The notes under the pieces were generated by a model. It was not told the origin of the DNA. It was given only the letters and a program-made list of their open reading frames with translations, and searched no databases. A DNA stretch of 64,000 nt from Cliona cf. orientalis (taxonomy: Eukaryota; Porifera; Demospongiae; Clionaida; Clionaidae): NCBI GenBank assembly GCA_963930775.1, contig OZ005700.1, positions 6,706,609 through 6,770,608 on the forward strand. Direction: 5' to 3'. The translations under genes were made by a program, and so were the position numbers. Positions 2,658 to 27,642 of the stretch are shown piece after piece. How positions within the stretch are numbered: position 1 is the first letter of the stretch; each line of letters begins with the position of its first letter.

Positions 2658-4121
2658 ATGCAAAGACCAGCCATGAATCTTGAGTATGGCTCGATAATCA
2701 GTGTTACAGTAGCTCTACTTGAGTTGATAGTAATAAAGCAATCTCTGGCTGAATTTGTGCTAGAGATACAAGTGTTCTCTATCATGACAGATAACACAAC
2801 CGACTGTGGGGCAGATGAATCCACCCCTGACTGCGAGACGTACTTGTCCATATTCTGTCTAAGAGAGCAAAGAAATACCACCTCCACTAGTACAACAGAT
2901 TGCCCTCTGGGATTTGCTAACAGAACATACTATTATTACTATGAACCACTTCCTACTAGGTACATCATTTCAGATCAACCATGGACAGTAAGTCAGTAAT
3001 ACCAGTACACTACTAGCTTCTTGGATGATAGTTGGCCTTGCATGCATGGAGTGGATGCATGAGGCACCGTGTAAAATGTACTAAAGCCATGAGACTTCAT
3101 TTTTTGATGACATGCCCAACATAAGCTGGTGCATTCTTACAGGAGGCATTTCAGCTGTACATCAATGCCAGAGATCAGGATGACGGCGGAGAAGAAGATG
3201 ATAACATTGATGACATATACATCAACATTGAACTCATGGCTGACTCCAGGTTCCCCCTCAGGGAAGTCTACGTTGGGGAGAGAGGCAACGTAGCTGTCGA
3301 TCTGAGCATTAGAGTCCAGTGTCTTGAGTACTACTATGGAGCTGACTGCTTCACATTCTGCCTGTCTCAAGACAATGATCAGAATGGTCACTTTGCGTGC
3401 AATGCTGAAGATGGGATGATTACCTGCTTAGCTGGATTCCAAAATCCTGAGAATGGTTGCTTAGATACAGGTGACTTACTAGTTAATGTCAGGAAATCCA
3501 GGAATAAGTATATTATGTATACTATGATAGAAAGGCCCGGATAAGAGGACTCTCTTTCTCTTCCTCTCTCAGATTCTCTCTCTCTTTCATTATCTATAAT
3601 GTTCTCCTGTTAATGCTTGTACAGTGACTTCAGCACTAACGACTCCATCAGTGGACACTGCAACTCTTACGGGCTACATAATACTAGCAGGTCTCCTTGC
3701 AGCATCTCTGGCTCTGAACATATCATTAATCTTCCTTCTGGTGATTCTTTGGCGAAAAATGTGCCAGAAAAGTAGAGAACTCACTGAGCTCCTTCAACAC
3801 AGGGGTAAGCCAGTGCTAGTCTTAATTATTATGTACAAGCATGAAATTAGATCCAAAGTATAAAAGAGCCATATAAGAGATGTTTCCATCTTGCTTTCAT
3901 GATGAATGCAAGGTGGGAACATCAGCTCTTATGACATTGTAGTTCTTGCATATTTTGGATCTTATGTTCATTGCTTTCCAGCAGAAGATGGCATTGAACT
4001 GAAGACTAATGCGATTTATGGACTAACCACACCGAGGGAGCACGCTCGTGTATATGGACTGAACCCTGGAAGTGAAACACTTCGCACTGAATATGACTAT
4101 ATCACAACTAATGATTATTAA
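2658..4121 (+). CDS. Delta-like Notch ligand A (MNNL + DSL, no EGF repeats)
   Basis: Four coding exons: 2658-2987, 3143-3470, 3625-3804 and 3982-4121. Intron phases are 0, 1, 1, and all introns are GT-AG. The product is 325 residues. Order: signal peptide (about 1-28), MNNL-like N-terminal Notch-ligand domain with the CETYLSIFCLRE signature, a DSL domain (about residues 170-217, YYGADCFTFC ... GHFACN ... CLAGF), then directly a transmembrane helix (about 236-262) followed by a basic stop-transfer (WRKM), and a roughly 60-residue tail containing NAIYG and VYGLN. Delta-family ligands normally carry EGF repeats after the DSL; none is present here. The product should be a cell-surface ligand for Notch. 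It lies between the two DDD-motif paralogs. The exon 1 start could also be the second Met, six codons downstream. Confidence 0.85.
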
Positions 4122-4177
4122 AAACTGTGTTCTTAATTATTATTATGATATGGACTCTTTACTTCTATGTACTATAA

Positions 4178-4183
4178 AATAAA
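4178..4183 (+). promoter_or_regulatory. Polyadenylation signal AATAAA
   Basis: AATAAA lies 57 bases after the stop codon of Delta-like gene A, a plausible distance for 3' end formation. Confidence 0.5.
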
Positions 4184-4375
4184 TGCATTCCAAACTGGTT
4201 ATGTGTGCTGACAATTAAAAATAATAATACGGCTGTAAAGTTACGATTGTCAACAAAAGCCATACTGGTACAAAATTCCATGTGGGTGTGCTACAAAAAT
4301 AATTGCACAATGTCATAGTAGTAGTATCGTTTGAGTTCAAAAGTAAATTAATGATTTTGCCATATATATACAGTA

Positions 4376-4532
4376 GCAATGACACACCTCAAGCTCACCA
4401 GTTTGGCTCATGATCGAAAATTGCCATTGGGATGGTCCTTTGTCAACAATAGATTGATTATTTGTCATAAGGTTTAGCTCTGGCAGAAAGTAGCTGCCTC
4501 TCTGGCAACAAGATTTGGGCAGGGCTATGGGC
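4376..4532 (+). promoter_or_regulatory. Duplicated upstream block of the DDD-motif gene (copy 2)
   Basis: Homologous to about 960-1095, with the same order of blocks, although one extra segment is present near 4410-4435. It lies upstream of the second paralog and supports tandem duplication of promoter plus gene. Confidence 0.45.
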
Positions 4533-4664
4533 TTGTAATTGCCTCCATGTAAGTGAAAATAGCTATCGGAGGATTACGTAAGCAATCTTCACTATTATGG
4601 CAGTATCATTACTTGATCTGATTGCCATGATACTGGCTAATTCTATGGCAAAAGTGGAAAGCTA

Positions 4665-5732
4665 ATGAAGCTAATGATCATTTGTATTGCACTACTTGCT
4701 TCAGTCTGCCTTACTATTGTCTCGTGGTTGAGAGGGCCAGTGGTATGGCATAGGCCAACTCCAATGAGGACTATTTTCACATACACAGAAGAGTTAGACG
4801 ATGGTAGGGACATTCCATCACCCCGTGAAGTACCAGGTACGAAACCATCAAAGTTTTTATACTTAGTACAAACTGAGAGCTGTCTACCCAGCAATCTGAG
4901 ATTGAATGAGACAATTGGAAATCCAAAGATTTGTAACTGTGATGTGTTGGTCCTAAGCTATCGTAAAGAGTGTAGAGAGAGACCATCGGATCATTTCAAA
5001 TATATCTTTGACTCCAATACCACGTGGGCAAAAGGGAGAAATCTCCTGTTTGAAGTTGCAATGAAGAGAAAAGAGAAATATTGGTATTACATCTTTATGG
5101 ATGACGACATTATTCTTAAATCACTAGAGGATGATCACCAACCCTGGAGGACTTATGAAAATTTTTTAAGACAAGTAGAGCCAGCAGTAGGAGGTGTGGA
5201 CTGCACTTGCTACCCTTTTCTTAAATATGCTTATAGAGCCAGAAGAAGACAGGGATGTGGTCCAATACCATCACTTTATTACTCAACACCACGATTTGAT
5301 GCAGCTTTGAATAGTTTCCACTATCAAGCTATCGAGTATATCCTACCTTACTCAGAAAGGTTCGATGACTACAGCTGGTCATTAGCCGCACTCTATGCTT
5401 CCATCAAAATGGAACTCTTCTTTGCCGGCCACTCTATATTGCACACTCAACTGTACGTAACTAACCCTAAACACCGTCCCTATCCAAGGAAGGAGTTTAC
5501 TCATGCCCAATTGATTTCCATACTGGACACCATTGAATGTGAGCTTCCGATGAAGTACAGGAATTCAACTGTGCTAGCTGAATGGAGGAAGAGCAAGTAC
5601 ACCCATGAGCATAATTCAAAAACCTTTTGTATGCCACCCGCTCCACCTCATACACCAGTAAGGCCGTTTGTATATGCAACTCAGGTTAAGTTAGCCGAGG
5701 ACAGCATCAATCATTATAACACAATGATATAG
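4665..5732 (+). CDS. Putative type II membrane glycosyltransferase-like protein, copy 2
   Basis: Intronless 355-residue paralog of the protein at 1258-2325. The two are nearly identical over the catalytic-looking core: YYIFMDDDIILKSLED, VDCTCYPFLKY, and the C-terminal CMPPAPPHTPV. They diverge mainly in the N-terminal membrane anchor (LMIICIALLASVCLTIV). The conserved frame, conserved DDD motif and equal length argue that both copies are functional. As for copy 1, the glycosyltransferase call is inferred from topology and the acidic motif. The two copies flank Delta-like gene A on the same strand, so a gene-plus-neighbour duplication may have built this part of the locus. Confidence 0.75.
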   Translation: MKLMIICIALLASVCLTIVSWLRGPVVWHRPTPMRTIFTYTEELDDGRDIPSPREVPGTKPSKFLYLVQTESCLPSNLRLNETIGNPKICNCDVLVLSYRKECRERPSDHFKYIFDSNTTWAKGRNLLFEVAMKRKEKYWYYIFMDDDIILKSLEDDHQPWRTYENFLRQVEPAVGGVDCTCYPFLKYAYRARRRQGCGPIPSLYYSTPRFDAALNSFHYQAIEYILPYSERFDDYSWSLAALYASIKMELFFAGHSILHTQLYVTNPKHRPYPRKEFTHAQLISILDTIECELPMKYRNSTVLAEWRKSKYTHEHNSKTFCMPPAPPHTPVRPFVYATQVKLAEDSINHYNTMI

Positions 5733-5958
5733 GTCAAAATATTGAGAGGTCATGTTTGGTTTACAATATTATGGGATATATATTATAGTTATGCAGTAAT
5801 TAGCTTTTTCTGTTCCTCTCCATAGTGAATTTTTGGTATGATAGCAAGGGCTTATAGATAGTACGTGGCCATGGAACAGAATTATCAAGCCACATAATGA
5901 AAATAAAATTGGTTAATGGTACATTTGAGAATGTTGCATGCAAAAATAATGTCCAAAT

Positions 5959-8900
5959 CTAGCTATTCAAAAGTTCATAGCCTGATCCTTCCACTTTTCC
6001 TAGCCTCACAGAATTCGTTGGTTGTGTAAAATCAGTTCCATGGTTTAGCTTATCGTAAGGAGGTGGACTTGAAATGTTTCCATAAGTTGGAGTCAGTTCA
6101 GCTGGCTTTCCTGGAGGGCCAGTGGATCGTGGAATATCATAGTGATTGTTCTGTGGAATGGAACCTAGTTGCAACTGTGGATCTGGAACGGGGCTGGATT
6201 GTTGCACGTTTGGGTCGGGAGTGGCATGAACAATTGTAGCGTTCACTGGAACTCTACCACTGGTATTTCCACTGGTATTTACCACTTCATACTGAAAATC
6301 ATCATCATAGATTGAACGTTTAAAGGTAACTTTTGTGTGTCCATTTGCTCCCCCAGAAGTGACATTGAGAGTAACTGTAGGCTCCTTTTCAATTGTAAGT
6401 TTATCAGGAGATACCTTCTCAGGGGTTGCTGGTTCAGCAGGTGCCATGGAGATGTACTCATACTGAGGGGGCACAGGTACATCTTTTCTTATCACCGAGC
6501 CAGAGCTGCCATTTATCAACATTCTGCTGATTTCAACTTGAGCATACGAATAAGGATTCTCCTCAGCTGCAGCTTTACTCAGATCCCTTTTGGTCGGTGT
6601 TACAGGTGACGGCACACTGTATACACCATCGGCAGTAGGGGGTGGACTCTGAGTGCCATATATGGGGTTAGGTACAACGTGCAGAGTTGAGGAGTGATCA
6701 GGGGAAGTGGTTGTTGTAATGTAGCTGTAGTAGGGCTCAGCCGTAGTGCTGGAGGCAGCAGCTCCGTTTTGATGGTGTGGGGAGTTGTAGAGGGGATTAG
6801 GCGCTACAGAGGAGCCCTCTTTAACCTCATCTCTGGTCTTATAGACGTGACTATCAGCTCTCGTGAAGGTTGATGAGGTACTAAATAGCTCATCTGTAGG
6901 TAGTAGTACAATAGGAAATGATTAGGAAATGGCAACATAGAGTGCAGATTTTCGAGGATCAAAATTGATGTGTATATATAATACTCTGATGGTTACCTGG
7001 AAGATCGTATGATAGATCTAGTTGCTTTGTTTTTCTTTTGAGGCAGATGCAAATTGAGACAATGATAATGATGATGATCATAATGAGCATGCCCACCAGA
7101 CCACCAATGGCTGCTCCAATTACGATTGTTAAACTACTCTTCTTGGCCAATCGTGTTTTATCCGTGGCACCTGAACAAGTGAAGTCAAATGGTCCCATTG
7201 ATGTACAGCTTCCACTGTTGGCACAGGGACTTGAATCACATGGGTCAATTTCTGGATTGAAAATAATAAGATCATGCATCTGATAAGGTTAGAAACCGCA
7301 CAATTTCATAAGAGTTTAGGCATGACAGTGTGCATGATTCACCAGTGGTTTTTGTTAATACAAATAGAGGCATTACACTTAGCTAGTGCCATGCACATTC
7401 CAAAGTCCCCTACATACCAGTGCAGTTTTCTCCTTCAAAGCCATGATTGCAAACACATGTGAATGAATCAACACCATCAATGCAAGTGCTGTTTCCTGGA
7501 CACTCTACTCCTGCACAGTCATCAATATCAATGCCACAGTTCCTCCCACTGTAGCCAGCAAGACACTGACAGGTGTAGTCAGCAACAAGGTCCTGCACGA
7601 GAAAAATAAAGAATTCTATAGCTATAGTATTGTGGCTTCACAACAAATATGGCAAGAAGTGGTCACACTTGTGGTTATACGCTCGTCTTCATCGGGAAAG
7701 CTATTATGACTGGTAATGGCTATCATCACAAATCATCTGCACGCATCATCTATACTATACAAGTTGCATTGTTCTGTCAAGGGTTGCGCTAAATTAAATG
7801 TGTTTTGATATGCTGTCAATCTCAGCCGTGACAGGCATGAATATTATAATATTATTATCAGATGCATTATTATTATCTTACTATACAAGTTGCATTGTTC
7901 TGGCAGGGATTGGGATCACACTCATTGATCTCAGTCTCACAACTCTTTCCAGTGTAGCCAGGAGGGCAGTCACAACTGTAGTCAGTGAGTCCAATTGGTG
8001 TACAGGGAGCATCCTGAGCACAGGGAGACCGACTACATGCTGTTATTCCTGTGATATTATTTACATGAGGTGGGAAATTCAAAGACAATGACATCATTAC
8101 AAGATATGGCAGCCTGGCATCATCACTTTGGTGCTACTAACAAACATATAATATCACTATTCCAGTGATTAACTCAATACATTATGTCACTAACTACACC
8201 CATATTGGTATAGTTTGCAGTTTATCAAGGTACCAAAATTAATGAATTTGAAGGAAGTTCACTAAACTCTCATTTCCCAGGTACAGTAAATAATGCATTC
8301 CATGCACAAGTTAAACCTATAGCTTACTGTCTCTGCAGTTGTTGCTGGGGTTTTCAAATCCATCTCGACATTGAATTGAGCCGTCAGCACTGTTGCAAGT
8401 GTAGTGTCCATTCACATCATCATTTTGAGCCGTGCAAAATATGGCACAGTTTCTTCCATAGAAGTTGGGTTGGCAATCAATGCGGTATCGTAGACGGACA
8501 CTCACTTTCCCGCCATTTCCCAAGTATTCTGTAACTGATGAGTAGCCAGTGTTTGGTTCCATGGACTGATTAATGAAGATGTCGTCAATATCATCATCAC
8601 TGCCGAATGGTTTGTCTTCATCTCTCGCTCTGATGAATAACTGGAAATTGACCTGCATACAATAAGGCAAAAAAGTGATAGACAGATATCCACGGCATTC
8701 TCTGAAATTACATCACAGTGGCAATATCATAGATTAATATCGACTGATTCTTTATATAATTCCAAAGGGAAATGCCGTATAGCGGGAAATTTTCGAGGGA
8801 GAAAACTTTCGCGGATCGGTAGGAAAGGAGCATTTCGCGGAGAAAACTTTCGCGGAATGTTAAAACTGGTCGCATAATGGGTGTGGCATGCCTAGAATTT

Positions 8901-9513
8901 CGTGGAGAAAACTTTCGCGGATGGCTGAAAAATCGCGAAATTCGTGAAAATTTTCTCCCTCGAAAATTTCCCGCTATACGGTACATAGTGTTGTGATAAC
9001 AATACTGTAGAGCTAGAATATTTTGGACTATCACACAACATGACAACATTGGACCATAGTAGCTAGGTCTTCATCAGGTCAATGCAAAAAAGGTTTTATT
9101 GTCATGTGATAGTCCAAAAATTCTACCTCTACAGTAGCATTAATACTGATCCTACTTTTAATCATCAGAGTATGGATATTGCAGAGCATCAGACTTACAG
9201 GCCAGGCACTGGTGGATGAGATTTGTCTTGTGACAGGGAAGTTAAAGTCAGGCCCATATCGTCCACTGCTTCCAAAAGAGCAGCCACTGTTCTCATTTCG
9301 AGACCGGAGACAGAATGTTGATAGGTAGGTCTCACAGGCAGATGATAATTCATCAATCCCTGAGCAATCTCCACGAGTAGTAACATCACTCAACTCAAAC
9401 TGAAATATAAAATCGGCTGCAACCAGCTGTGCAGAGAGGACAACCACAGAGAAAGCACAGCAGAGGGCCCTGCAGGTACAAACAGTCTTAGGCAGCCGCA
9501 TTCTTTCTTGCAT
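5959..9513 (-). CDS. Delta-like Notch ligand B (MNNL, DSL, 3.5 EGF, TM, long tail)
   Basis: Six coding exons read on the minus strand: 9513-9199, 8652-8328, 8048-7882, 7592-7418, 7251-6997 and 6893-5959. Junction phases are 0,1,0,1,1, giving 723 residues. Order: signal peptide (ALCCAFSVVVLSAQLVAA), MNNL domain with CETYLSTFCLR, DSL domain (FYGRNCAIFC ... GHYTCN ... CRDGFENP), three complete EGF repeats, then a fourth EGF with only four of its six cysteines that reads straight into the membrane helix (about SSLTIVIGAAIGGLVGML plus an isoleucine run), a KRK stop-transfer, and a cytoplasmic tail of about 330 residues. The tail contains NPLYN, NPIYG and several YGN/YDxP tyrosines. The start could be either Met 1 or the internal Met four codons later (MRLPK). 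A 207-bp MITE sits in intron 1. Putative Notch ligand; the tail tyrosine motifs are described under findings. Confidence 0.85.
8775..8981. mobile_element. MITE with 31-bp terminal inverted repeats
   Basis: The left end CCGTATAGCGGGAAATTTTC and the right end GAAAATTTCCCGCTATACGG are inverted repeats that extend inward to about 31 bp. The interior repeats GGAGAAAACTTTCGCGGA. It carries no coding capacity and lies in intron 1 of Delta-like gene B. The target duplication is not clear. A fragment of the same sequence (TTTCGAGGGAGAAAAC) may sit near 16963. Confidence 0.8.
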
Positions 9514-9883
9514 TCGGAGTCACGGTATTAAGAGTAATGAAACGACCTGAATGGCCTGCACCTTATGTTCAATAGAGTACTATAGGTGAGATCAGAGTAC
9601 ATAGAATCCTGAAGGTTGCAGTTCACCCCAGGCGTTTGCCCCTTACATGGACTTCTGTGCTGGTAGTGATCTCATCGTTTGTCCACTTCAAAGCAGCGCG
9701 CGGCAACACGGGAAAACCAACAAGGTGCAACGATGAAGTCATGCAATTAATAATGTGATGATTACTGCGCGTGCGCATTTATAGTCACTCCATTGACGAC
9801 CTTTACCATATGCACCATGTGTAGACAACTACATGACTTGTATAAATTTTAATTTCCACCAGAAACAGCAGAAAGTTTATAAT
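9514..9883. other. Intergenic spacer upstream of Delta-like gene B
   Basis: This stretch should contain the promoter of gene B. I see no gene, RNA or clear repeat in it. Confidence 0.4.
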
Positions 9884-10475
9884 TACCCCGCGCGCATGCG
9901 CAAGGGGTAAAGTAATCGGTTGTGTCGTCGTCGTTAGCACAAAAATCGCCATATCTCGAGATGTAGGCGTCTAAGCGACTCGTAAGCACAACGAATCAAT
10001 CGAATTTGGCGAAAAAATGGCTTCAGTATGCGTCAAATCGAGGGATACGGTCCACGAGCGTCACAAATAGTGCATGTTTCATGATGTTTGTTGGCCACCG
10101 TAGCCACGCCTATCGACAGTGCCCATCAATGCATAATACATGCCATTATGCTTTCTGCTCATGCGCACAACTAACAAGCGTATGACTGGTAAAGGTCGTC
10201 GATGTTCTAAATACATGTAATTCTGACTGAAATCTGAAGCCCCATGGAATCAATCAGTATGTAAGATAGCTATATACTATTAAATATAAGTACAAGTTCA
10301 TGTCTTCCTAGTCTGGGTGCAGAGAGGGCTGTTTCAAGTGTCACCAGAACAATTAAGCGGCATTTCCATTATTTCTCTCAAGTTCACAAAAGTAGCTATA
10401 GCCATGCACCGAAAATAAATCTATAGATTGCACAATGAGCGTGCGGGGTATGTGCTCTACAGAGCTCTAGTTGTA
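9884..10475 (+). mobile_element. Repeat with TACCCCGCGCGC ends, copy 1
   Basis: Starts TACCCCGCGCGCATGCGCAA and ends near GCGTGCGGGGTA. A further shared tail (GTGCTCTACAGAGCTCTAGT) is also present beyond the homologous end in the copy at 14554. The two copies share scattered blocks (GTAAAGTAATCGGTT, TTAGCACAAAAATCGCCA, GCTCATGCGCACAAC). No coding capacity, so a non-autonomous DNA element is likely. The exact right boundary is uncertain. Confidence 0.6.
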
Positions 10476-10496
10476 AAATTGAATCCATCAGTGGCG

Positions 10497-13400
10497 CTAG
10501 ACTGCTGAAGAATCAGAAATTTCCACCAAAGCTGCAGCACTGGTGTCTGTGACCACCTCATTTTCATTGCCCTTGAATGTAACAGTTGTGTAGTCCTGTG
10601 TCACAAGCATTGGTGCACTGTACACTCCATCAGTAGTGAGGGGTTGACTCTGCATCCCGTATATGGGATTAGATACATCATGAAGAGTAGAGGAGTGGTC
10701 AGGGGATTCAGTGGATGAGAAATTAGCGTAACTTTGATATGGCTCGCCCGATTGATTAGCCTGAGAGATTCCACTCTGGTGTTGGGGAGAACCATAGAGG
10801 GGATTGGATAACACAAACTGGTCTTCTTCAGTATCCCCTCTAGATGTGTACACTTCACACTCTGCCGTAAAATGAATATTAAAGGCAGTTGTAAGTGACT
10901 TATTAAAGCTTAACTTTGCCACAGCTATTTAAGTGTCCCTGGCTCATTGACTGGGAGGGCCTAATACTGGTACTAGTGTGTATTAGTACAAAGCTATGGG
11001 ATAATGAGTGCATCATTACACAGTACTGCTCTAGTATATTATAGTACCTGCTAGATAGTATGATTGGTATCGATTTTTTCTTCGCCTGATGCAGATGCAA
11101 ATAATGACAATGATGATTGCAATTATTGTAGCTGTTAGGCCTCCAATTGCAATGGCTGGACCAATAATGACTATCCTCCTGAGCGGCTTATGTTGTGTTT
11201 GAGCTGAGTCATCTGGTTAAACAAGACGTGATTGTATCTGATGTTAGTTGATCTTAATGTGACTACTTTTAGTATACCTTGAGTTACTCCAATTTACCTT
11301 CCAGTTGTCCTTCCAGTGGCATTATTACTGATGTGCACTGATCTCCTTCAAATCCAGGATTGCAGACACACATGTGTGAGTTGACGGCATCCACACAACT
11401 GCTGTTAGCTGGACAAACTGCCATCAAGCATTCATCAATGTCCACTTCACAGGTCGACCCAGTGTAGCCTGCAGCACATTCACAGCTGTAGTTAAATGGT
11501 CCCAACGATGTACAGTTTCCAGTGTTGGCACAGGGGCTTGAATCACACAGGTTGATTTCTAAAATTAATGAAGGTCAACAATACATAATAATATTATTGT
11601 CAGAAACTGATAAGATGTTGGTTCTGCATAATAATGTTATTGTGGATCCCACCCGAAGTAGTTGGGCTCCTAATAATTAATTCTTTAACTTTCAGGTACG
11701 TAGAGATTCTACGGTTCATAGCTACGTGCATGCTTGAGTTACTTCAATTTACCTTCCAGTTGTCCTTCCAGTGGCATTGTTACTGATGTGCACTGATCTC
11801 CTTCAAATCCAGGATTGCAGACACACATGTATGAGTTGATAGCATCCACACAACTGCTGTTAGCTGGACAAACTGCCATCAAGCATTCATCAATGTCCAC
11901 TTCACAGGTCGACCCAGTGTAGCCTGCAGCACACTCACAGCTGTAGTTAAATGGTCCCAGTGATGTACAGTTTCCAGTGTTGGCACAGGGGCTTGATTCA
12001 CACGGGTTGATTTCTAAATGAAGGTCAACAATATATAGGTCAGAAACTGATAAGATGCTCAGGGTATAGCTACAATCATGCTGCATAATAATAATAATAT
12101 TATTATTGTGGATCCCGCCTGAAGTAGTTGGGCTCCTAATAATCACTTTCAGGTACATAGAGATTCTATGGTTCATAGCTACATGCAAACCTACCAGTGC
12201 TTAATTTACCTTCCAGTGGCATTGTTACTGATATGCACTGATCTCCTTCAAATCCAGGATTGCAGACACACATGTATGAGTTGACGGCATCCACACAACT
12301 GCTGTTAGCTGGACAAACTGCCATCAGGCATTCATCGATGTCCACCTCACAGGTCGACCCAGTGTAGCCTGCAGCACATTCACAGCTGTAGTTAAATGGT
12401 CCCATTGGTGTACAGTTTCCAGTGTTGGCACAGGGGCTTGAATCACACGGGTTGATTTCTAAATGAAGGTCAACAATACATATTATCAGAAACTGATAAG
12501 GTGTTCAGGGTATATACATAATAATGTTATTGTGGATCCCACCTGAAGTAGTTAATTGGGTTCCTAATAATTCTTTCACTTTCAGGTATATAGAGATTCT
12601 ACCGTGGTTCATAGCTACATGCATACCTACCAGTGCAGTTCTCTCCTACAAAGCCATGATTGCAAACACATTCGAATGAATCAACACCATCAATGCAAGT
12701 GCTGTTTCCTGGACACTCTACTCCTGCAGCTGCACAGTCATCAACAATGCCACAGTTCCTCCCACTGTAGCCAGCAAGACACCGACAAGTGTAGTCAGCA
12801 AGAAGGTCCTGAATTGAGGATGACAAGGAAGCTAATTGCAACTGGGTGGCCTCGAGCTCATGATAAACAGCAAGGAATGGTTAGCCTTCTCCCCAGGACC
12901 CATCTGCATTCCCTTGCAAATCAGTGCCATTAATATAAGCTAGCCTATAACAACATCTTGATAGCTGACAGTAGCAGGCATAAGTTATAAGACGTGCATC
13001 CCTTACTGTACAAATTGCATTGTTCTGGCAGGGATTGGGATTACACTCATTGATATCAGTCTCACAACTCTTTCCAGTGTAGCCAGGAGGGCAGTCACAA
13101 CTGTAGTCAACGAGTCCAATTGGTGTACAGGGAACATTCTGTACACAGGGTGACTGACTGCATACTGTTATTTCCAATATTCAATGAGAAACACAAAATG
13201 TCATATTATAGTCTTGGTCTAAATATTATAGTTAGACACTGTTTAGGAAGGTTTCTATGTGATTTAGAAGACCGAAGGACTCTATAATTATAGAATCCCG
13301 AGCGAAGCAAGGGTTCTATGAGAGCCCTGAGGTCTTCTAAATCACATAGAAACCGACTAAACAGTATATCTAACAGGTTTAGATCACAATAGCTTTGTAT

Positions 13401-14322
13401 TGCTAGAGCCAGAGGGCAAAACTTGTAGGTGACTATGAGATATAGAATCATAATATTATACCTGTCAGTAGCCAATCAAATTGCAGTATTTGTTACAGCT
13501 ATGATCTAATGATACTTAGTCTATCTCTGATCCAAATACCTATAGGCCTATTTTATCACGTACTGCATTGTACATGCAGTGATAAAAATAAATATCCTGT
13601 ATAGCTAACTTACTATCCCTGCAATAGTTGCTTGGATTCTCATATCCATCTCGACATTGAATTGAGCCGTCAGCACTGTTGCATGTGTAGTGTCCATTCA
13701 CATCATCATTTTGAGCCGTGCAAAATATGGCACAGTTTCTTCCATAGTAGTTGGGTTGGCAATCAATGCGGTATCGTAGACGGACACTCACTCTTTTATT
13801 TTTTCCATAATATTCTATTAGTCGCGAGTAGCCTTTGTTTGGTTCTTGGGACTGATTGATGAAGATATCATCAAGATCATCGTCGCTGTTCAGTACCCCA
13901 TCGTCGTGGTCTTTTGCTCTGATGAACAACTGGAAACCAGTCTACATGACAAGAAACGGAGTAAAACAAACGCACTGAGTCAATACTAGGTAGTACACAA
14001 ATAAAGCTACTGTATTAGGGTCTGAACCTAGACTTACAAGCCAAGCACTGGTGGATGAGATTTGTCTTGTGATCGGGAAGTTAAATTCAGGCCCATATTG
14101 TCCACTGCTTCCAAGAGAGCAGCCACTGGTCTCGCTTTGAAGCCGGAGACAGAATGTTGATAGGTAGGTCTCACAAGCAGGTGATAATTCATCAAAAATC
14201 TTTTTGCAGTTTACATGAGTTACAACATCACGCAGTTCAAATTGAAATATAAAATTGGTTGCAGCCAGCTGTGCAGAGAGAACAACTATAGAGAGAGCAA
14301 AGAAGAGGGCCCACCTATTCAT
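10497..14322 (-). CDS. Delta-like Notch ligand C (MNNL, DSL, 9 EGF, TM, tail)
   Basis: Nine coding exons on the minus strand: 14322-14038, 13941-13614, 13164-13007, 12808-12631, 12458-12210, 12013-11753, 11558-11298, 11212-11048 and 10861-10497, giving 749 residues. Start chosen at MNRWALFFALSIVVLSAQLAA, an evident signal peptide. MNNL (CETYLSTFCLR) and DSL (YYGRNCAIFC ... GHYTCN) domains are followed by three EGF repeats matching those of gene B, then three near-identical exons each encoding two EGF repeats (DIDECLMAVCPANSSC), a membrane helix (IVIIGPAIAIGGLTATIIAI) and a tail of about 140 residues with NPLYG and NPIYG. All phases match those of gene B. The ancestral acceptor of exon 3 appears lost (TTG where gene B has CAG). 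The AACAG at 13165-13169 restores the frame and is assumed here. Putative cell-surface Notch ligand. Confidence 0.85.
11298..12458 (-). repeat. Tandem exon-plus-intron triplication within Delta-like gene C
   Basis: Three units with a period of about 445-455 bases (exon right ends at 12458, 12013 and 11558), each an exon of 249-261 bases plus its intron. Exon sequences differ at only a few sites. Introns share blocks such as GGTCAACAATA, GAAACTGATAAGATG and TATTGTGGATCCC. Two of the exons carry an extra 12 bases (GGACAACTGGAA) before the donor. Confidence 0.9.
13231..13374. mobile_element. Small MITE in intron 2 of Delta-like gene C
   Basis: Inverted repeats of roughly 40 bases: the left arm reads GTTAGACACTGTTTAGGAAG, then GTTTCTATGTGATTTAGAAG. 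The right arm mirrors it with CTTCTAAATCACATAGAAAC and ends ACAGTATATCTAAC. Length is about 144 bp, non-coding, forming a strong foldback. Confidence 0.75.
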
Positions 14323-18164: not shown

Positions 18165-18378
18165 TATCACTGGTGATATCACTTCCTGTTTTAGCAATTG
18201 CATGCGTATTCAGCTCCTCGGAAGCAATTGGCTGCCTTAAAATCATACACTTGTAGGCAACATCACTGCAACTTTTCTCTTTCCTTAGATCAAATCAACG
18301 AATGGTGACACCTTCCTAGGTGATGAAGACTGTGACAATACCCTCGTTGCCGAGTTCAAGAGAGACATTAATAGCTGT

Positions 18379-18451
18379 GTGCATGTAGCTCAGGGGTTAG
18401 AGCATTGGTCTTGTAAACCAGGGGTCGGCAGTTCAAATCTCCCCTATATGG
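18379..18451 (+). pseudogene. Broken tRNA-Thr copy
   Basis: Matches the intronic tRNA-Thr(TGT) at 44418-44490 through the D arm, anticodon arm (CTTGTAA loop) and T arm. The acceptor stem halves (GTGCATG and CTATATG) no longer pair. It was duplicated along with the Hsp70 locus. Confidence 0.85.
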
Positions 18452-18759
18452 CAGTAAGCCGGAATCTAGCCCATGCGATTACCCGGGAGTGGGTGCTCTC
18501 CAATGGACACTATGGTGTGAGTATATGAACTTTTTGTACAGCTAGCTAATAATATACTGAACTCTTAACATTGTGCACCAGACCCTCTTTAGATTATATT
18601 ATAATATAGCTATTTACAAACACACCATCATTTAAGTCAACTACAGAAGATGATTGAACATACACCCTTTTATTTTTGCTAATTACTATAGCAAAATTAT
18701 TAATACCAATACAGATAAATCAATGGCTTTTAATACACTACTACTGGTTCAATTACTGT

Positions 18760-21700
18760 TTACTGGCTAGTAAATCCATAAACTTCATTTGGTTTCATTT
18801 CAATACTTGTGGTCCCTGAAGTCAAATAAAAAAGACAATAAATATTATTATTAGGGATTTATAAAGTGTGAACATTTTCGTTACATAGTATGCTGATAGA
18901 CTCAAGAGTATAGTAAGTGAAGTGGTATAATTACCAGAAACCCTAAAATAGCTGCTGTTTTCATTGCTTGATAAAGCTGAGAGAATACTTTGATGTACAT
19001 TACATTATCATTCATGGATGACTCGATAATAATATGCAATATGTTCATCAGTGCATCCCAGGTTAGTCTATTGAGCTAGACCCTTCCTTGCACTTGTATT
19101 GTAAATGCAAGGAAGGGTCTAGCTCAATAAGACTAATCCCAGGTATGTTAAGTTTATGCATGGGCAAGGCAATACCGAATGTGTGACTATCGTTGTGAGC
19201 TTGTCGGGGACCATGGAAGGCAGTGATGGTAAACAAACAATGCCATAATTTTCAAGTAGAACATTGTAAGTGCTCAAAATGCCTACTGTAATGCAAATTA
19301 ATGCACATGGCAGCTAGCCTAGTGGCAGACATGCAAATAATATGTATACACTAACACACACATGGTACACAAACTACACGTACCATGCATGATAGTTCTT
19401 AGCTTAACAAGGATGGGCACACACACTCTCACTTGTCTGTGTTGATAGCAGCCAAACTGTACTAGAGCATCACAGACCCTGTGTTGATAGCAGCCGAACT
19501 GTACTAGAGCACCACAGGCATGCATCACCCCATCTACATCCTAAAGCTAGCTGGAAGAGAAAAAATCCGGGCAGCCGCCGGGAATCGAGCCCAGGGCCAC
19601 TGACATAACATGTGCTGAGGATTAATAAGAGATCTAGATAAAAGCCCACTAGTCTTGCAATGCCATCTGCCACGTCCAGTGTTCATTTACCATGTGCGTG
19701 CATGTGATTTCAATTAGCAAGCATTCAGCTAGTGCTTTAATAGTGTGACACAATGTCTTCAATGCAGAGGAGTCAGATACAAAATAGCTACAACAGCAAG
19801 TATATTATTATAATATTATTTGAAAAATGTGCACCTAAAACCAGTGAGTTCCTTTTTATCAGTTTAATAGGCCATTATGACAAATTTTCCCTCCTTTGCA
19901 CATGTTTACTGGAATAGCTAGTAATTCTCCATGCAACTTGGTTCATGATATCTATGACAACCAATAGCTAATCAGGCTGAATATTTTATAATAGCCTATT
20001 AATATTACTACGTGTGTCTGTAAAATAATATTCGTTGTGTACCTTAGCAACCACATGCATGCACAAACGAATACAGGCTGTACACCACTATCATTTCATC
20101 TTCCTTTTTCAGGTATATCTATTTCAACATTACCTTGAATAATATTATAGGCAGTGGGCAAACTAACTAAGGTCTATACCCAGGCAGCCAGATGCAGTCA
20201 CCCAGCATAGTGCTCAAGGTCCGGCAGAAAAACAAAACAAAGTACAAGAAGCTAGATTCAGATCAGCTAGTTGTGCTGTGCATATAATATTATATTATAC
20301 CTCCAAGCTACCTGGTGCCCACAGAGTCCACTATGCATACCGGCCTATAGTATGTGCTTCTTTTTTCATAGAAAAACTCTGTTGAACGTTTTGTCTATTA
20401 CAATATCTCTACTCACTACTGGACTAGAATAGTCTGAAAAGCAACTTGATAGTGTCTTATGTGTGTCTTAAAATGTGTCTGTGAAAGTGATCTCACTGAA
20501 TAGTGTCTAAAAAGAGTATGAAGGTCTCCAACTAGGACTCTGAAAAGAGTCTTAAAATTATGCATGGTCTTGTGTTACTTTAAGATGTAGTCTTAAAAGA
20601 GTCTTAGCAATCTGAAAAAAGTCTGAAGTTGAAAATGGTATTTTAAGATGTAGTCTTAAGGTACCATTTAATTGCGTGGGCGTGAGCGTCAGAAAAGGCT
20701 AATTCAATTAGCGAATCGTGAAGGGGCGTGGCCGAAGAGGCCATACGAGTGCTTTTGGTCGAAGGTGGGCGTGTCCAGAATCGGCCAGGGATGATTATGC
20801 GCGTGTAATTAGCGACCGGAAGTGGCCCCTGAAGAAAAGGCCGGTAATTGCCCACATCAAAGCAAGATCAAAGCATTCTTTCTTAACTATTAACCGCAAC
20901 GACTTAATTAAACACTAAGTAGAAAAAAAAAGCAAATTTAAATAATTAAATAATTAAATAAATAAATAATTAAATAATCTAATTCATGGGGGGTTTGGGA
21001 GTACTTGGGGACATAATTTTTACATGGGCACGCAGAATGGGTCGAAACTAGAGATTTGACCTGAAAGAATTTTGATTCACGCCTTTGAATTGAAGTTACG
21101 GCCCTTTGAAGTTTTCCCATATGTTTGTACAGGGAAGCCATGCGTTTGCAATGTTTTCCGCCCACGCGCTACGTGAAAAACGGGGAATCCCCGTTAGGCG
21201 CGCGCACACAAACGTGACGACCTTTACCTGTTTTGGTCAAAATTGGAGTATAGGGTGCCTGCTTGCATTGTATGGCTCTACTAAGCATCCAGCTCAACTA
21301 TGTGGTGGTTTTGGACAATTTTTTTTTTCTGCTTAGTGTTCTGGTCTCCTTGAAAAAAAAAAAAAAAAAAAAAAAGCTTATTAGGCCTAATTAAGCGTGT
21401 GGGCGTGTTCCTGGCACTGTGTGGAGTGTGTGCGTGTGCGTTAATGCAGGTTTCATTGCTTCCGATTGGGCGTGGCTTCACGGGCCAGTGCTTGGACATC
21501 GGCGCCTGGGACTTGGCCTCGGCGATAGGTGGGCGTGTCCCGGAAGCGGTGGTGACCTTTGAACCCCGCGAGGAGGCTTTGGGGGCGTGGCAGGAGGTCA
21601 AAGGTGAGGCCATGTCTGTTAATGAGGCACTGTACGGCGGTGCGATCGAGGGGCCTGTACGGCTGGACGGAAGCTGACGATGGTTTGAAGCAGATGTGGT

Positions 21701-24700
21701 TGCGATGACGTGTTGTTACTCCGCCCACACAGGAAATGAGGTGAGCTCTTGCGTGGGCGGTGTGGCAGAACGGCCTCCAAGTGTTTGTGTGCGTTTTGGC
21801 CTTGAGGAAGCTGTGTGTTTTAATTGGGATTGATTGTGGGCTTCCGGTGGACATCCGGTGGTTAGTAGGCACTTGATTGAGAATGGTGGTCCTTGGGGAA
21901 CAGGGTGGGGCTGTTTTGGGCGTGGCCTGGCCCCTCCCTTCCGGCTCGGCTTCCGGTCCATGGAGGATATTAAATGAACACTTCCGGCTCTAGCAGCCAC
22001 ACCCCTGAGACCTGTGCAATTAAAAGGGCGTGGTTACACAACATGCACCTCACTAATGACTTTGATGTGGTTTAGGTGTCATATCCCCCACCTCACGCCC
22101 ACACAATTTAATGGTACCTTAAAACTTATCTACTGTACACAGTATATGGCATAGTAAAAAGCTTAAAAGAGTCTTAGAATCTGAAAAATGCTTGAATTTG
22201 AAAAAGATAGAAAATCATAGCAATCTGAATAAGACCTGAAATTGTTAGAAATTAATGCTAATTTAAGATATAGTCTTAAAAGAGTCTTAGCCAATCTGAA
22301 GAAGTCTGAATGGCAAGCATCTGAAAAGTATCTGACTACGCGTGCTCAGTTAGTGCGCGGCGCGGCGCCAGTATCACGTGAGGAGGGAAGTTTTGAATTG
22401 GATCCATGGAACGCGAACTTGACGGATCGGAGTGTTTGAAGAAGGCTGTGAAGAAATGGACGCCAATAAACGTCGAGAGCCTCAAGATTTTCATTAAACT
22501 CTCCAGCCGATACAGATAAAAAGCGCAGTCGACTGTCATGCACTGCTCAGCTTCTAGGAGGTTGATTTAGCTGGGTGATAAGAAGTGTCTGGACCGAAAT
22601 CAACGTTGAGATCATCAGTCACAAGCCAACAAGTAAGTAAGTAACGTAAATACGCTAACAATCCTCAGTCAGCTCCGAATTTGTTATACTTTGTCCTCTG
22701 TTTTTCTAATTAGTGCCCTCCCTCCCTTGCTCCCTCTCTCTCTTTTCCCCGGTGTGCTTTCCTTGGCTTTCATTCTTGTGATGGAATACCACCCAGGCCC
22801 TTTGAGGAGGAGGAGGAGGAGAAAGGGCCTGGTTCATAAGTACTGTGTGCGCATGCGTTATTTCCCAGTAAAGCTGGGAATTCGTGTTTTTGTCCTTGAC
22901 CTAAGAAATAAGCCTAAAAATCATTTGGCACTGTCTGACCGCATGGTAGTGATAATATACAGCGAATTGCACTAGGAAATCCACTGTAAATTTTGCACAT
23001 GCACGTACAGTGTGTACCAGGCCCTTTCCGCTTCTTATCCTCCTCAAAGGATCTGGATACAAGGCTAAGTTGGTTCTCTGACTAATAACATTAATTTTTT
23101 ATCTTGTAGGGAGTGAAGGAATGTCTGCTGGGAAGATGTGTTGCAGTGGCACTAATTATGATGTGACGACAATGATTTGATGAGGAAGGTGATACCAACT
23201 GAAGGTAAATTGCATACTGTATTATCACCTAAGTGGATGGGAAAAGAAAAGGGTCTGGTAGCTACTAGCCTCATATATACCCAGGCCCTTTGAGGGGAGG
23301 AGAAAGGGCCTGGTACCTATTGCTCACGTGAGCAATAGAACGTGTACACGCACTCCGTGTTATGGTTTGCATTCTTGGATAGACCTGTTGCTATGACAAT
23401 TTGAGCAAAAAAATGGTCAAAAATGGCGACTGCAGTGCACTTATCGACTAATAGTGCTCAGCGAAACAAAAAATAGCTAGTTTTGAACTTAGACAAGGCT
23501 TATTTCAGTGAAGGAGTCCTTACTGTAAACGTGGCCAGCAAGTTTGAGTTTCTGAAGTCTCTCTGCTCTATGCTACAGTCCCACAAAGTCCAAGAAGCAA
23601 GAATGGCCGATTTTTGGCCCTTTTCACGGCCTGCTTACTCACAGAAGACAGCGAAATCAGTGTCAAAACTGTCATAAATAAGACGGCCCATCCCGAAATG
23701 GTGGCAAAGGCAAAGCCACTGCACCGATATACTGAAATAAACAGTTTTCAACTGTTCTTGATCAGCCATTTTTTGCTTCTTGGACTTGTAGCGTAGACCA
23801 GAGAGACTTCGGAAATTCAACTTTGCTAGCCACGTTTAGAGTAGGGACTCCTTACTGGAATGAGCCTAGTTCAAGTTCGAAACTACTGTTACTTCACTGC
23901 TATTAGTCGATAAGTGCACTGCGGTCGCCATTTTCGGCCATTTTTGCTCAAATTGTCATAGCAACGGGTCCATCCAAGAATGCAAACTATAATACAGAGT
24001 GTGCATACACGTATACACTGTACGTATGTTCTATTGCTCACGTGAGCAGTTTCCAATCCCATTTACGTAGTCTATAATATCTACATGTATGATTGCACGC
24101 ATATGCACCAACTACCCAAGAAAACCTGGGTTGCTGCAAACAACTGTATGCTTTTTCACCCTCCTCCCGTGGGCAAGGGTACAAGGCAATATCATATTGG
24201 TGCAGCCTCGTACTCTAAGTCGCAGGAGGAGGGCAAAAAGTGTACAATCATTTGTGGCATCCCAGGTTTTCCTGGGGTAGTTAGCACATGTGCGTGCAAT
24301 ACCTATTTCCTCCTCCTTCCGGGCCTGGGTACGAGGCTAGGTAGCTACACATTGAATGTTCATACAACTTCCTCTGTAAATTTACTGTGGAACTTATTGG
24401 ATTCTATCTTTGGCTAACAGATTGGAAAATTGAAAAATAAAGAAAAGAAGAAATTTGAGAGAAAGCACAAACAATGAGACTCTAGTAAGGAATGTTCTTA
24501 GGATTAAGTTTAATATTATTATATTATACTGCTGACTTTAGTATTCTATACTTTGTTTAATTTTGTGGTTTTATCCTTAACTTTAATGTTAATCCTTATT
24601 GTTTATTCCAACTGCTATTCTTTATTCTTCATTCTTACAATAATTTGTAATTAATTGCACATTCCATTCATGTGGCACAAATAATTAATAATCTTTTTAG

Positions 24701-27642
24701 ACCAATATCAGATTGCTTTAAGATACCTCTAGTATTTGTGCATGTCAATACTTAAGACCAGTTTCAGTACCTTCTCATGAACTTTTTAGACTTTTGGTCA
24801 GTCTGTTTTCATACCCTTTTAAGTCAAAATTGGGCCCAATTTTTAGACCAATTTCATACCATTTTCAAATACTATTCAGAAACGTTTCAGACTTTTTATG
24901 TCAGATAGTTTTTCAGAGACACAATCCAGACTATTTTAAGACTACTTTAAGACCACACTCTCCAGTAGTGACTGCCCACTATCACTATACTTACTTTTTG
25001 ATAGATACATGCATAATTATAGCTATGTGTATCTTGAATTGTGTACATAACATGCATCATGATCAAGGCTTCATAAAACTCACGATCATGATGTCCGGTT
25101 GTATGTCCAGAGACGAGTCCATAAACTTCATTTGGTTTTGTTTCAATATCTCTGTCAGTTGCTATAAGAGAAAGGTATGCACATATTGAAACTAGCTAAT
25201 TATTGCAGACCTCAAAGGTAGGAAAAACACTTTGAATTGGACGAACCTTGACAAGTGTATTGGTGGTCACGGTGAGGCTTCCTTCCTTTGATGACCAACA
25301 CAGATAACACTACAATAACAATGATGAGGATTCCTATGATCAGTGCTGCTGACGAGGCCACTCCAATAATGACTTCGATAGCCACTGGAATAACAAAGAT
25401 ATGAGTGATAGTCATGATCAATACCCATTGTACTGTCATACTCGGGTGCTAAAAATTATATTTTAACAGCAAGATATACACACTGTCAGGCAATTCCTCA
25501 GCCTGTGTATGTAATAATATATTAACATCTTACTAGGTACTGTACATGTTACACCAAAGGAATGTTACTGTTTTGGATAGCTACTCTGAAGTTTCATGAC
25601 TATTATTAATTTTTCTATCATGCACACATACTCCCTCCCTCACTTCAGCTTCTCTCCTTTTGTTCTAACAGGCACCAAGGCTAAGTCTCTCTCTTGTTGA
25701 TTTGCACAGCCAACACATGATTGTGTATTTGACCATTAATTTTGCATGCTCAATAGGTATATAATATAGCAATCAATCACTCGTTGTAGCATCCCTGATG
25801 TGCATAAGGAGTAATCAAAGGTAAATTTGGATATGAAAAAGGAGTACATGTGTAGTTGAGAACGTGCTCATGATCAATGCTCGGCCAACTTTAAATTAGT
25901 AATACAGAATTATTGATAAGAGGCTATAATTTCTGTCAGGCTTAGCTACATCATTAATTATTTTTGATGTTAAACATAATAATAATTATTATTATTATGA
26001 TAGAATTAAACCTATTGGTGAACTCTTGAAGAAGGTATTGTACTGCATCATAATGTGTACTTTGCTAACCTGATATTGGCCCTGTGTGATTTTCTGACTG
26101 TAACACCATTACACAATCATGATTATTGGAGTTCTCAAATCCAGGCAAGCAAGTGCACTCATAGGAGTTGACTCCATCCACACACATGCTGTTGCTTGGG
26201 CAGGTTGCAGACACACAGTCATCAATATTAACCTCACAGGTAGATCCAGTGTAGACAACTGCACACTGACAGGTGAAATCAAATGCTCCTATTGATGTAC
26301 AGCTGCCACCATTAGCACAGGGACTTGAATCACATGCCAAAATGGCTGCAGTCAATATGTACGTAACAGCAGAGGAGGTTGGACACGATCACGTGCGCAC
26401 AAAAAGTGGGCGTGTTGCCCCATATATAACACTGTACAAAATGCAAGTCACGATCTAAAGCCTTGACGACATTTTTAAATGTGAAAGCAAGTTGAAATCC
26501 ATGAGAAAAGAAGATCCAGCGCCATACTCCGCCCGTCCACCCCTCACACTTCTTGCAAATCGAGAAAACTGGTTCCTCAGAATGGCAACATCAAAAATAG
26601 TATTTGTCGATCGCAGTCAGCTTCTTTCGCCGTTTTAACATTAGATCTACACGATTCGTCTCCGTTTCAGCTTCAGATTTGGCCATAGTTCACAAACGCA
26701 AACATTTTAGCTACCAGCTACACTCGCAAATGGCATTCTTTTGAACGCGTGGCAGCATAATTGCATACCAAGGACATGTGACTATGGTGTAAATATGCGT
26801 CATGTCCAACCTCCTCTGACGTAACAGCATCCAATTGTAGGATAAAAATTAATTAATTTTAATAACCAAAGCTCACCTTCTGTGCAATTGTTCCTGGTGT
26901 TCCTGAACCCCTCCCGACATTGAATTGAACCATCACTGTTGCATGTGTAGTATCCATTCACACTATCATTTTGGGCTCTGCAAAGTCTAGTACAGTCTGG
27001 TCCATAGTAATCCTGCTGACACATCACTCGAAATCTCATATCCAAGACAACTCTGTTCGTTGTACTGTTTCCATTGTATCTCTCTATTGATGTGAAGCTG
27101 GTATTCACCTCCAGCATCTCATTGATGAATATGCCATCCAGGTGAACATTGTATGTAGGGTGACAGCATGGATCGAGTTCTCTGGCTTCAATATACAACT
27201 GAAATGTCCCCTATAATGATATTAATGACAATAATTAGCAGCCTAATTATACCATAAACTTGTAGCTCACAGGCCATGGGTGTTGCGAAGTTATTGTTCG
27301 GTTTACTGATCCATCTGGTAATCCAGGTCTTGTTGCTGCAATCCGCTGGTCAATACCAGTAAGGTTGACGCCAGGAGTATATGCAATAATTCCTGCATCA
27401 TTCCTACCAAGTGGACAATACTCCGCATCGATGATATGGGTGCTTGTTCCTTCTCTAAGACAAAATGTCGATAAGAAGGGTTCACATGGCCCCAGGAGCT
27501 CGACGTCTGCCGGGTCTACACTGTCGCAGGTACCATTGTCGAATGTAGTAGTTACAGAGACCAGCTCAAACTCAAACACAAACTGAGTGGACGATGGCCA
27601 CGCTTGAAGCAGACACAGCAAGCTGAGCACCGTGAAACTCAT
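18760..27642 (-). CDS. Delta-like Notch ligand D (MNNL, DSL, 2 EGF, TM, short tail)
   Basis: Proposed exons on the minus strand: 27642-27271, 27210-26877, 26345-26070, 25384-25247, 25161-25084 and 18815-18760. Phases 0,1,1,1,1 sum to a 417-residue frame. A signal peptide (VLSLLCLLQAWPSS) is followed by MNNL (CEPFLSTFCLRE), DSL (YYGPDCTRLC ... GYYTCN ... CREGF), two EGF repeats, a membrane helix (about VIIGVASSAALIIGILIIVI) and a short tail with two NEVYG motifs. The last exon is 6.3 kb downstream. It has a good polypyrimidine tract, matching phase, a stop codon and a sequence related to exon 5. Alternatively exon 5 could read through to a stop at 24947-24949, inside a transposon end. The first five exons are firm and the sixth is an inference. 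An extra 449-bp element lies in intron 2. Confidence 0.8.
19062..19137. repeat. 30-bp-arm hairpin in Delta-like gene D intron 5
   Basis: The left arm GGTTAGTCTATTGAGCTAGA continues CCCTTCCTTGCA. The right arm mirrors it with TGCAAGGAAGGGTCTAGCTC then AATAAGACTAATC. The loop is about 15 bases. Likely a small foldback element. Confidence 0.75.
20660..22118 (+). mobile_element. GGTACC-end transposon with TTAA target duplication, copy 1
   Basis: Ends are GGTACCATTTAATTGCGTGG and CACACAATTTAATGGTACC, with longer internal similarity (GCGTGGGCGTGA and TCACGCCCACAC). It is flanked by TTAA on both sides (20656-20659 and 22119-22122). The same element, inverted, is at 30678-31693. A 4-bp TTAA-like target resembles piggyBac, but the GGTACC end does not match the usual piggyBac terminus. 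No transposase frame is present. It contains a further element at about 20911-21350. Confidence 0.88.
20911..21350 (-). mobile_element. CACTAAG-end element nested in the TTAA element
   Basis: Starts ACACTAAGTAGAAAAAAAAA and ends TTTTTTTCTGCTTAGTGTTC, forming inverted ends. It is absent from the sister TTAA element at 30678-31693, where only a poly-T tract sits at that position (about 31421-31449). Homologous, in the opposite direction, to the three tandem units at 32520-33760. Non-coding. Confidence 0.8.
22407..22520 (+). other. Short open frame of possible host origin inside the CACTA element
   Basis: An ATG at 22407 opens 37 codons (MERELDGSECLKKAVKKWTP...) ending TAA, preceded by GC-rich promoter-like sequence with CACGTG. 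Its composition differs from the surrounding subterminal repeats. It could be the 5' exon of a captured or decayed gene. No homology is recognised. Confidence 0.2.
22788..23312. repeat. Repeats of a CAGGCCCTTTGAGGAGG motif
   Basis: CCAGGCCCTTTGAGGAGGAG ... GGAGAAAGGGCCTGG occurs at about 22794-22833 and again at 23281-23312. An inverted form lies at about 23019-23052. Each is a short foldback with arms AGGCCCTTT and AAAGGGCCT. Probably a foldback repeat family. Confidence 0.5.
23317..24049. mobile_element. Large foldback element with ~160-bp arms
   Basis: The left arm at about 23317-23470 (CTATTGCTCACGTGAGCAAT, GCATTCTTGGATAGACC, TTATCGACTAATAG) is matched in reverse complement by about 23896-24049. 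The centre also shows mirrored words (AGGAGTCCTTACTGT near 23514 and AGTAGGGACTCCTTACT near 23840). Non-coding. It lies within the CACTA element. Confidence 0.75.
24092..24300. repeat. Foldback element with CCAGGTTTTCC arms
   Basis: The left arm ATTGCACGCATATGCACCAA then CTACCCAAGAAAACCTGGG is mirrored by CCCAGGTTTTCCTGGGGTAG and TTAGCACATGTGCGTGCAAT on the right. Inner GGAGGAGGG and CCCTCCTCC words extend the pairing. Confidence 0.7.
26370..26818. mobile_element. 449-bp MITE with 9-bp target duplication
   Basis: Ends are CAGAGGAGGTTGGACA and TGTCCAACCTCCTCTG, exact 16-bp inverted repeats. Flanks are ACGTAACAG on both sides (26361-26369 and 26819-26827), a 9-bp direct repeat. A 9-bp duplication points to Mutator-like elements, while the CAG start is more hAT-like, so the superfamily is left open. 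Inserted in intron 2 of Delta-like gene D. Confidence 0.88.

Follow-up and report, generated by a model that had tools for sequence, protein, structure and literature searches.

Four adjoining genes for DSL-domain proteins (A to D), found in a 64,000-nucleotide stretch of the genome of Cliona cf. orientalis (hereafter the window), can be assigned, with a probability put at about 0.55, to a lineage-specific and still-changing expansion of single-pass membrane proteins that are probable Notch ligands. This reading is favoured because of the domain matches and because at least 44 DSL matches can be found in the genome together with one Notch receptor locus; because of the two-EGF exon units, the 455-bp array formed by one of them and the uneven silent divergence between B and C; because the group dN/dS values of the heads lie below 1 and the calcium-binding D140 position is commonly Asp; and because a tail motif recurs in the window and in tails from contigs C9 and C14. 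It is weakened by the absence of the equivalent of F207 of Jagged-1 and of Pfam MNNL matches in the window proteins, by single pairs with dN/dS values of up to 2.37 and by three tails in which the motif was not seen over the stretches examined.

All four genes reported in a first-pass annotation are present, each with an open, in-phase splice model built from the sequence (Table 1). Gene A, on the plus strand, has 4 exons and encodes 325 aa; B, C, and D, on the minus strand, have 6, 9, and 6 exons and encode 719, 749, and 417 aa, respectively. The common order described earlier, i.e., leader, MNNL/C2-like domain, DSL, EGF repeats (0, 2, 3.5, or 9), membrane span and tail, is found in each of them, the hydrophobic leader and the membrane span being judged by eye in all four, and so are the reported exon phases, 0 after exon 1 and 1 after exon 2. 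The last exon of D, missing from the earlier text, was located through copies of it at four further places in the surrounding gene array; its phase fits, and the predicted splice leading to it from exon 5 spans 6.3 kb. The alternative to this splicing is that exon 5 is read through as far as a stop near 24947.

Table 1. Exons of genes A to D and the tandem array in gene C, in window coordinates (window: G000:C12:6706609-6770608, contig OZ005700.1; genome size 216.8 Mb).
Feature	Position	Strand	Basis
Gene A exon 1: hydrophobic leader and first half of MNNL/C2-like domain	2658..2987	+	splice model, phase 0, gtaagt donor; profile match
Gene A exon 2: second half of MNNL, and DSL	3143..3470	+	splice model; PF01414 29.8 bits
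Gene A exon 3: membrane span, no EGF	3625..3804	+	phase 1 to phase 1; preceding intron 154 bp
Gene A exon 4: tail with N-A-I-Y-G, stop	3982..4121	+	splice model; motif count
Gene B exon 1: leader and first half of MNNL; in-frame ATG 12 nt upstream	9199..9501	-	splice model
Gene B exon 2: second half of MNNL, and DSL	8328..8652	-	splice model; DSL 35.8 bits
Gene B exon 3: EGF1 and start of EGF2	7882..8048	-	splice model
Gene B exon 4: end of EGF2, and EGF3	7418..7592	-	splice model
Gene B exon 5: truncated EGF (4/6 Cys) fused to membrane span	6997..7251	-	splice model
Gene B exon 6: long tail with NPLY, NPIYG	5959..6893	-	splice model; motif count
Gene C exon 1: leader and first half of MNNL	14038..14322	-	splice model
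Gene C exon 2: second half of MNNL, and DSL	13614..13941	-	splice model; DSL 36.3 bits
Gene C exon 3: EGF1 and start of EGF2	13007..13164	-	splice model
Gene C exon 4: end of EGF2, and EGF3	12631..12808	-	splice model
Gene C exon 5: EGF4-5, repeated exon copy 1	12210..12458	-	splice model; TRF; divergence
Gene C exon 6: EGF6-7, repeated exon copy 2	11753..12013	-	splice model; TRF; divergence
Gene C exon 7: EGF8-9, repeated exon copy 3	11298..11558	-	splice model; TRF; divergence
Tandem array, period 455 bp, 2.7 copies, 87% matches: duplicated EGF exon and intron	11285..12514		TRF
Gene C exon 8: membrane span	11048..11212	-	splice model
Gene C exon 9: tail with NPLYG, NPIYG	10497..10861	-	splice model; motif count
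Gene D exon 1: leader and first half of MNNL	27271..27642	-	splice model
Gene D exon 2: second half of MNNL, and DSL	26877..27210	-	splice model; DSL 34.0 bits
Gene D exon 3: EGF1-2	26070..26345	-	splice model
Gene D exon 4: membrane span	25247..25384	-	splice model
Gene D exon 5: tail with KPNEVYG	25084..25161	-	splice model
Gene D exon 6: second KPNEVYG, stop	18760..18815	-	exon recurs at four other array places

With regard to the heads, the Pfam DSL model PF01414 matches all four window proteins at 29.8-36.3 bits (cut-off 24.2), and the Pfam MNNL model PF07657 matches none of the four at E<=1, D being scanned without its last exon; in the same scan at E<=1, D again lacking its last exon, VWC, a Jagged/Serrate domain, is not among the Pfam matches of A to D. 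When a profile of the four heads was compared with solved structures, all 12 distinct sequences recovered at E<=0.01 were Notch ligands (best E 3.5e-15), the matched chains being Jagged-2, Jagged-1, DLL4, Delta, Serrate, and DLL1, with an alignment that covers both MNNL and DSL. A wider profile, made of 13 of the 24 heads built, reaches E 3.9e-25, and Pfam MNNL at E<=1 matches 5 of these 13 heads. In a genome-wide search with an MNNL profile (20 candidates scored), 13 matches were obtained, none of them inside the C12 array. The first-pass annotation had named both domains and had taken a failure of the profiles to match as the sign that it was wrong: DSL is recovered by Pfam itself, whereas MNNL fails with Pfam and is recovered only by the profile made here, so that one domain of the two fails with the former and neither with the better profile. 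Judged by the sequence of their heads, A to D are members of the DSL family.

The family is much larger than the window. At least 44 DSL matches, all above the cut-off, were found by profile search of the genome (74 candidates scored); among the matches listed, 12 are on C12, 9 on C17, 9 on C16, 7 on C14, 6 on C9, and 1 on C10, and they are laid out as five clusters and singles. On C12, 11 of the 12 lie within 182 kb (6.552-6.734 Mb), 10 of these 11 exons being on the minus strand, and 4 of the 11 are in the window. The cluster of four put forward at first is part of an 11-match array and of a family with at least 44 matches. A haplotype artefact is unlikely for this array, whose copies lie serially on a single contig. 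Array-type tail or membrane exons can also be found with no DSL match nearby (C12:6646149-6646516, 6670513-6670728, and 6621893), and could be either remnants or further genes. Elsewhere, at C14:6.92-6.96 Mb and C16:7.390-7.403 Mb (L038-L047), a DSL subfamily with a shortened DSL loop harbors Cys-rich repeats of the DPxTNCTxCL type after DSL instead of EGF, with a membrane span seen in L041 and L045, and at C10:498050 (L035) a second DSL gene is apparently devoid of EGF, one frame leading from DSL to a membrane span.

An LNR profile gave four matches at two loci, on C13 and C7. At C13:5.856-5.864 Mb, same-strand exons match EGF, LNR, and Ank, which identifies the locus as a Notch receptor gene. 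The C7 locus was rejected as a second receptor, since it carries Stealth domains and is GNPTAB-like; a 741-aa transposase-like ORF, hAT-like by eye, lies between the exons of this GNPTAB-like gene (L029, C7:9283612-9285834). A search of the genome with a NOD profile found nothing and is not informative. On the basis of these matches, one Notch receptor was found as against dozens of predicted DSL genes. Together with the DSL genes, it marks the genome as that of an animal; in a search for silicatein as a sign of a siliceous sponge, at least 116 matches were listed, and the two stretches read contain ordinary cathepsin L-like exons with the active-site cysteine. Mind bomb, a protein that acts on the ligands of Notch in other animals, contains a MIB_HERC2 domain; this domain was matched 29 times at E<=0.001, with many of the matches clustered and most on C7 and C8, and 26 exceed the cut-off. 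A parallel expansion is possible.

The EGF counts first given for the four stalks, 0 in A, 2 in D, 3.5 in B, and 9 in C, are borne out by Pfam and by the splice models. Gene A has no EGF match with Pfam, and the 154 bp between its DSL and membrane-span exons leave no room for an EGF exon; B displays three complete EGF repeats and one truncated after the fourth cysteine, in the same exon as the membrane span. The basic stalk unit of the array is an exon with phase 1 at both ends and two EGF repeats. This two-EGF exon is present three times in gene C, with a silent divergence of 0.08-0.10 between copies, and two such units are found in the gene at 6.674 Mb. As read from these gene models, EGF number demonstrably changes by duplication or loss of the phase-1/phase-1 two-EGF exon. 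When B is compared with C, exon 1 has a silent divergence of 0.20, exon 2 one of 0.55, and the two exons for EGF1-3 have 0.10 and 0.06; the value exceeds 1 in the EGF4 exon and is saturated in the tail. For exon 2 versus exons 1, 3, and 4 taken together, a Fisher test on rounded counts gives p 6e-5. Exchange or conversion between copies is a likely cause of this unevenness.

All four window tails contain N-x-x-Y-G, and none of 5000 shuffles reaches their total of 5, a count that predates exon 6 of D and concerns a motif picked after the window tails had been viewed. The C9 locus L032, which was not used to pick the motif, has six N-x-[ILV]-Y-G on the gene strand (300 shuffles: mean 0.20, maximum 2), or seven against 0.22 expected if Thr is allowed, an extension chosen after one such tail had been seen. 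With Thr allowed, the minus strand of the whole array gives 20 against 5.0 expected (maximum 12 in 40 shuffles), these 20 including the window's own motifs and at least two probable chance ones (6696870 and 6554886), and the plus strand gives 4 against 4.6 expected. A tail from C14, IEMKPNSLYGLTSG, resembles those of A and D; three other tails (L031, L035, and L045) show no N-x-[ILV]-Y-G over the stretches examined. Taken as a sequence pattern, N-x-[ILV]-Y-G appears to recur in many tails of the DSL family. NPxY motifs are known as PTB or clathrin-adaptor sites; a search of open-licence papers found no role for NPxY in Notch ligands.

The DSL contact face departs from that of known ligands. 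At the position of Jagged-1 F207, Phe occurs in none of the 39 readable DSL domains (16 Asn, 9 gaps, and 14 others) and in both known ligands of the alignment (DLL4 and JAG1); the DSL loop of the window genes is one residue longer. Notch binding is abolished when this phenylalanine is replaced by alanine, both in Jagged-1 (F207A) and in Delta (F204A) (PMC3888931; PMC8490980). The position of the calcium-binding D140 of Jagged-1 is Asp in 30 of the 39 domains, Glu in 7, His in 1, and Asn in 1, the DLL4 row also having His.

Selection values, calculated as mean dN over mean dS per group, are 0.48 for exon 1, 0.53 for the MNNL part of exon 2, and 0.24 for DSL in the clade of gene D (6 genes), and 0.08-0.32 in the other groups, except for 0.86 in exon 1 of B/C and one C9 value that was not computable. 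Among single D-clade pairs, dN/dS rises to 2.37 in the MNNL part of exon 2, another pair has replacements without silent changes in DSL, and one C9 pair has 0.96 in exon 1. The heads are mostly under purifying selection, and positive selection over whole heads is unsupported by the group values. The head loop that aligns with Jagged-1 beta5-6 differs in length among the 7 genes of the D clade, where its pN/pS is 0.98 versus 0.25 for DSL. This contrast is not general, because the same loop has 0.40-0.52 in the other three groups and because, in the C14/C16 group, DSL (0.57) is no lower than the loop (0.49). In bilaterian ligands, this is the lipid loop, far from the Notch interface (PMC8490980).

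It is conceivable, if rather unlikely, that these proteins are DSL-derived recognition or adhesion receptors which no longer bind Notch, their heads binding one another or different partners and their tails signaling inward through the tyrosine motifs. Dozens of members for a single Notch, the universal lack of the key Notch-contact Phe, the variable D-clade loop, the tyrosine motifs and the signs of exchange between paralogues would all suit such receptors, but the group dN/dS values below 1 would not, and the loop excess is confined to one of four groups. Moreover, given the remoteness of the lipid loop from the Notch interface (PMC8490980), its variation alone is no sign of new partners, and in Amphimedon, Deltas whose DSL binding sites are unconserved are expressed in developmental patterns (PMC3482393). 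Speculatively, and with still less weight, Notch ligands may have turned into a large surface recognition family with exchangeable-loop C2-DSL heads, adjustable stalks and a conserved N-P-x-Y-G-type tail acting in the bearing cell, of which a minority still serve the single Notch.

That most copies are competitors or cis-inhibitors of the single Notch receptor, with few activators among them, is improbable. Ligands do outnumber the receptor, the DSL binding face is altered and the stalk lacks EGF in A, as it does in the C10 gene if the latter is read in one frame; the purifying selection, however, fits activation equally well.

Distinctly more doubtful is the proposal of the first-pass annotation that one local ancestor was duplicated in place, yielding a clean EGF-number series of Notch activators. 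The plan and phases common to all four genes speak for it, and so does the tree, in which B and C are sisters (support 100/99). Nevertheless, the shared phases, offered as proof of local duplication, do not serve as such: a phase-0 acceptor before x-x-[FVIA]-[QRKA]-[LFMVAI] is found at 38 of the 44 DSL places, on six contigs, and the phases therefore mark the family and not local descent (a 39th exon, in the 6596 gene, was read without the usual acceptor). The tree comprises 39 exons plus DLL4 and JAG1, i.e., 41 rows, and 13 of its 38 inner branches are well supported. D falls inside a seven-gene array clade (100/100), which forms a single clade with B/C and six C9 genes (96/91); B and C are weakly nearer to C9 (90/78) and A is unplaced. 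Genes from C9 thus group with B, C, and D, against descent from one local ancestor. Nor is the series a clean one, since the genes vary not only in EGF number but also in their tails, loops, and DSL. As for its use as a natural series for asking how much of a ligand is needed, the EGF numbers differ as described, but the idea presumes Notch binding, and the key Phe is missing throughout.

A decaying family of relics with little function is hardly credible: some members look broken or truncated (the 6665 gene, whose exon 1 leaves frame; C17:1524379, C14:6955221, and C14:6926800, where the exon start is missing; the 6596 gene, which has no usual acceptor), but the four window genes have open splice models, 24 heads have open frames and group dN/dS stays at 0.08-0.53 apart from exon 1 of B/C and the value that was not computable.

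Other features of the window were also noted. Two single-exon ORFs on the plus strand, 78% identical, flank gene A (1252-2325 and 4665-5732); they carry an F-x-DDDI motif and are glycosyltransferase-like by eye. As Fringe-like partners they were rejected, with no Pfam match and a best E of 0.19 for the first ORF against solved structures. Their family has 21 matches, some broken, on eight contigs, and therefore constitutes a separate dispersed family. Further on are a minisatellite of ~18-bp units in roughly 70 copies with long open frames on both strands (28129-29359), a 417-bp tandem unit repeated three times with 95% matches (32519-33760), a minus-strand retrotransposon (34119-38899) whose endonuclease-reverse transcriptase frame is open over 1157 aa and is overlapped by an upstream ORF with a PHD-finger match below the family cut-off, and, on the plus strand, a protein kinase domain with Kelch repeats further on in nearby open frames (47619-49817).

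If A to D are members of an expansion of probable Notch ligands, as preferred here, they would be displayed on the cell surface, where the tip of the C2 domain may meet the neighboring membrane in a calcium-dependent manner and the DSL face may contact the Notch receptor through residues other than the missing phenylalanine. The NPxY-like tail could recruit PTB or clathrin adaptors, and this recruitment might lead to uptake of the ligand, the pulling step of Notch activation, or to signaling into the ligand cell. Varied head loops and stalk lengths would then provide cell types with different ligand strengths towards one receptor.

Several of these traits are known from the sponge Amphimedon queenslandica, in which one Notch and five Deltas (AmqDelta1-5) were described, with no EGF in AmqDelta4 and 3-10 in the others (PMC3482393). 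MNLL was detected by software in one of the five, the essential bilaterian DSL binding sites are not conserved (Richards and Degnan, PMC3482393), and PTB, SH2, and PDZ sites were predicted in the tails (PMC3482393). In both sponges one Notch is found with several Delta-type proteins, at least one of them EGF-less, MNNL is mostly undetected by existing software models and the DSL contacts are unconserved; five ligands in Amphimedon (PMC3482393) stand against at least 44 DSL matches here. The words "tandem" and "NPXY" do not occur in the main text of the Amphimedon paper (PMC3482393), and neither an array nor a mechanism of exon duplication nor a shared N-x-[ILV]-Y-G motif was found in its accessible text. 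A sponge Delta with no EGF is already in print (PMC2770060; PMC3482393), and glass sponges have a single Delta (PMC10970066). Like bilaterian heads (DLL4 4xl1, JAG1 5uk5, Delta 7alk, and Serrate 7alt), the Cliona heads have the MNNL/C2-DSL order, and the profiles align over most of the head; unlike them, they lack the Notch-contact Phe, the window DSL loop has its extra residue and A has no EGF. Cnidarian DSL-only genes also present DSL in unusual architectures outside the standard ligands, but with 1-11 DSL repeats (PMC2770060), whereas the window genes have one DSL each, followed by EGF or nothing. Large lineage-specific expansions in tandem clusters with identical intron-exon structure are known from Ephydatia (PMC7385117), although they concern other families, Notch and Delta having no occurrence in the main text, and the large, lineage-specific SRCR expansion of sponges likewise concerns another family (PMC10855680). 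No DSL expansion of such size was found in the open-licence literature.

As far as these searches go, the scale, the array, the exon-duplication mechanism, the mosaic genes and the tail motif are new here; the range of 0 to 10 EGF repeats, the single Notch and the unconserved DSL binding residues are already published for Amphimedon. The initial observation is confirmed as real and correctly described, and was framed too small. With a single Notch found and DSL genes in the dozens, this genome suggests that Notch ligands can be multiplied and reshaped in the manner of a recognition gene family, and the recurring tail motif suggests that there may be a second function in the ligand-bearing cell. 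With its natural variants of stalk length, DSL contact face, and tail, the family makes the question of the minimal Notch ligand testable, provided that Notch binding is measured first.
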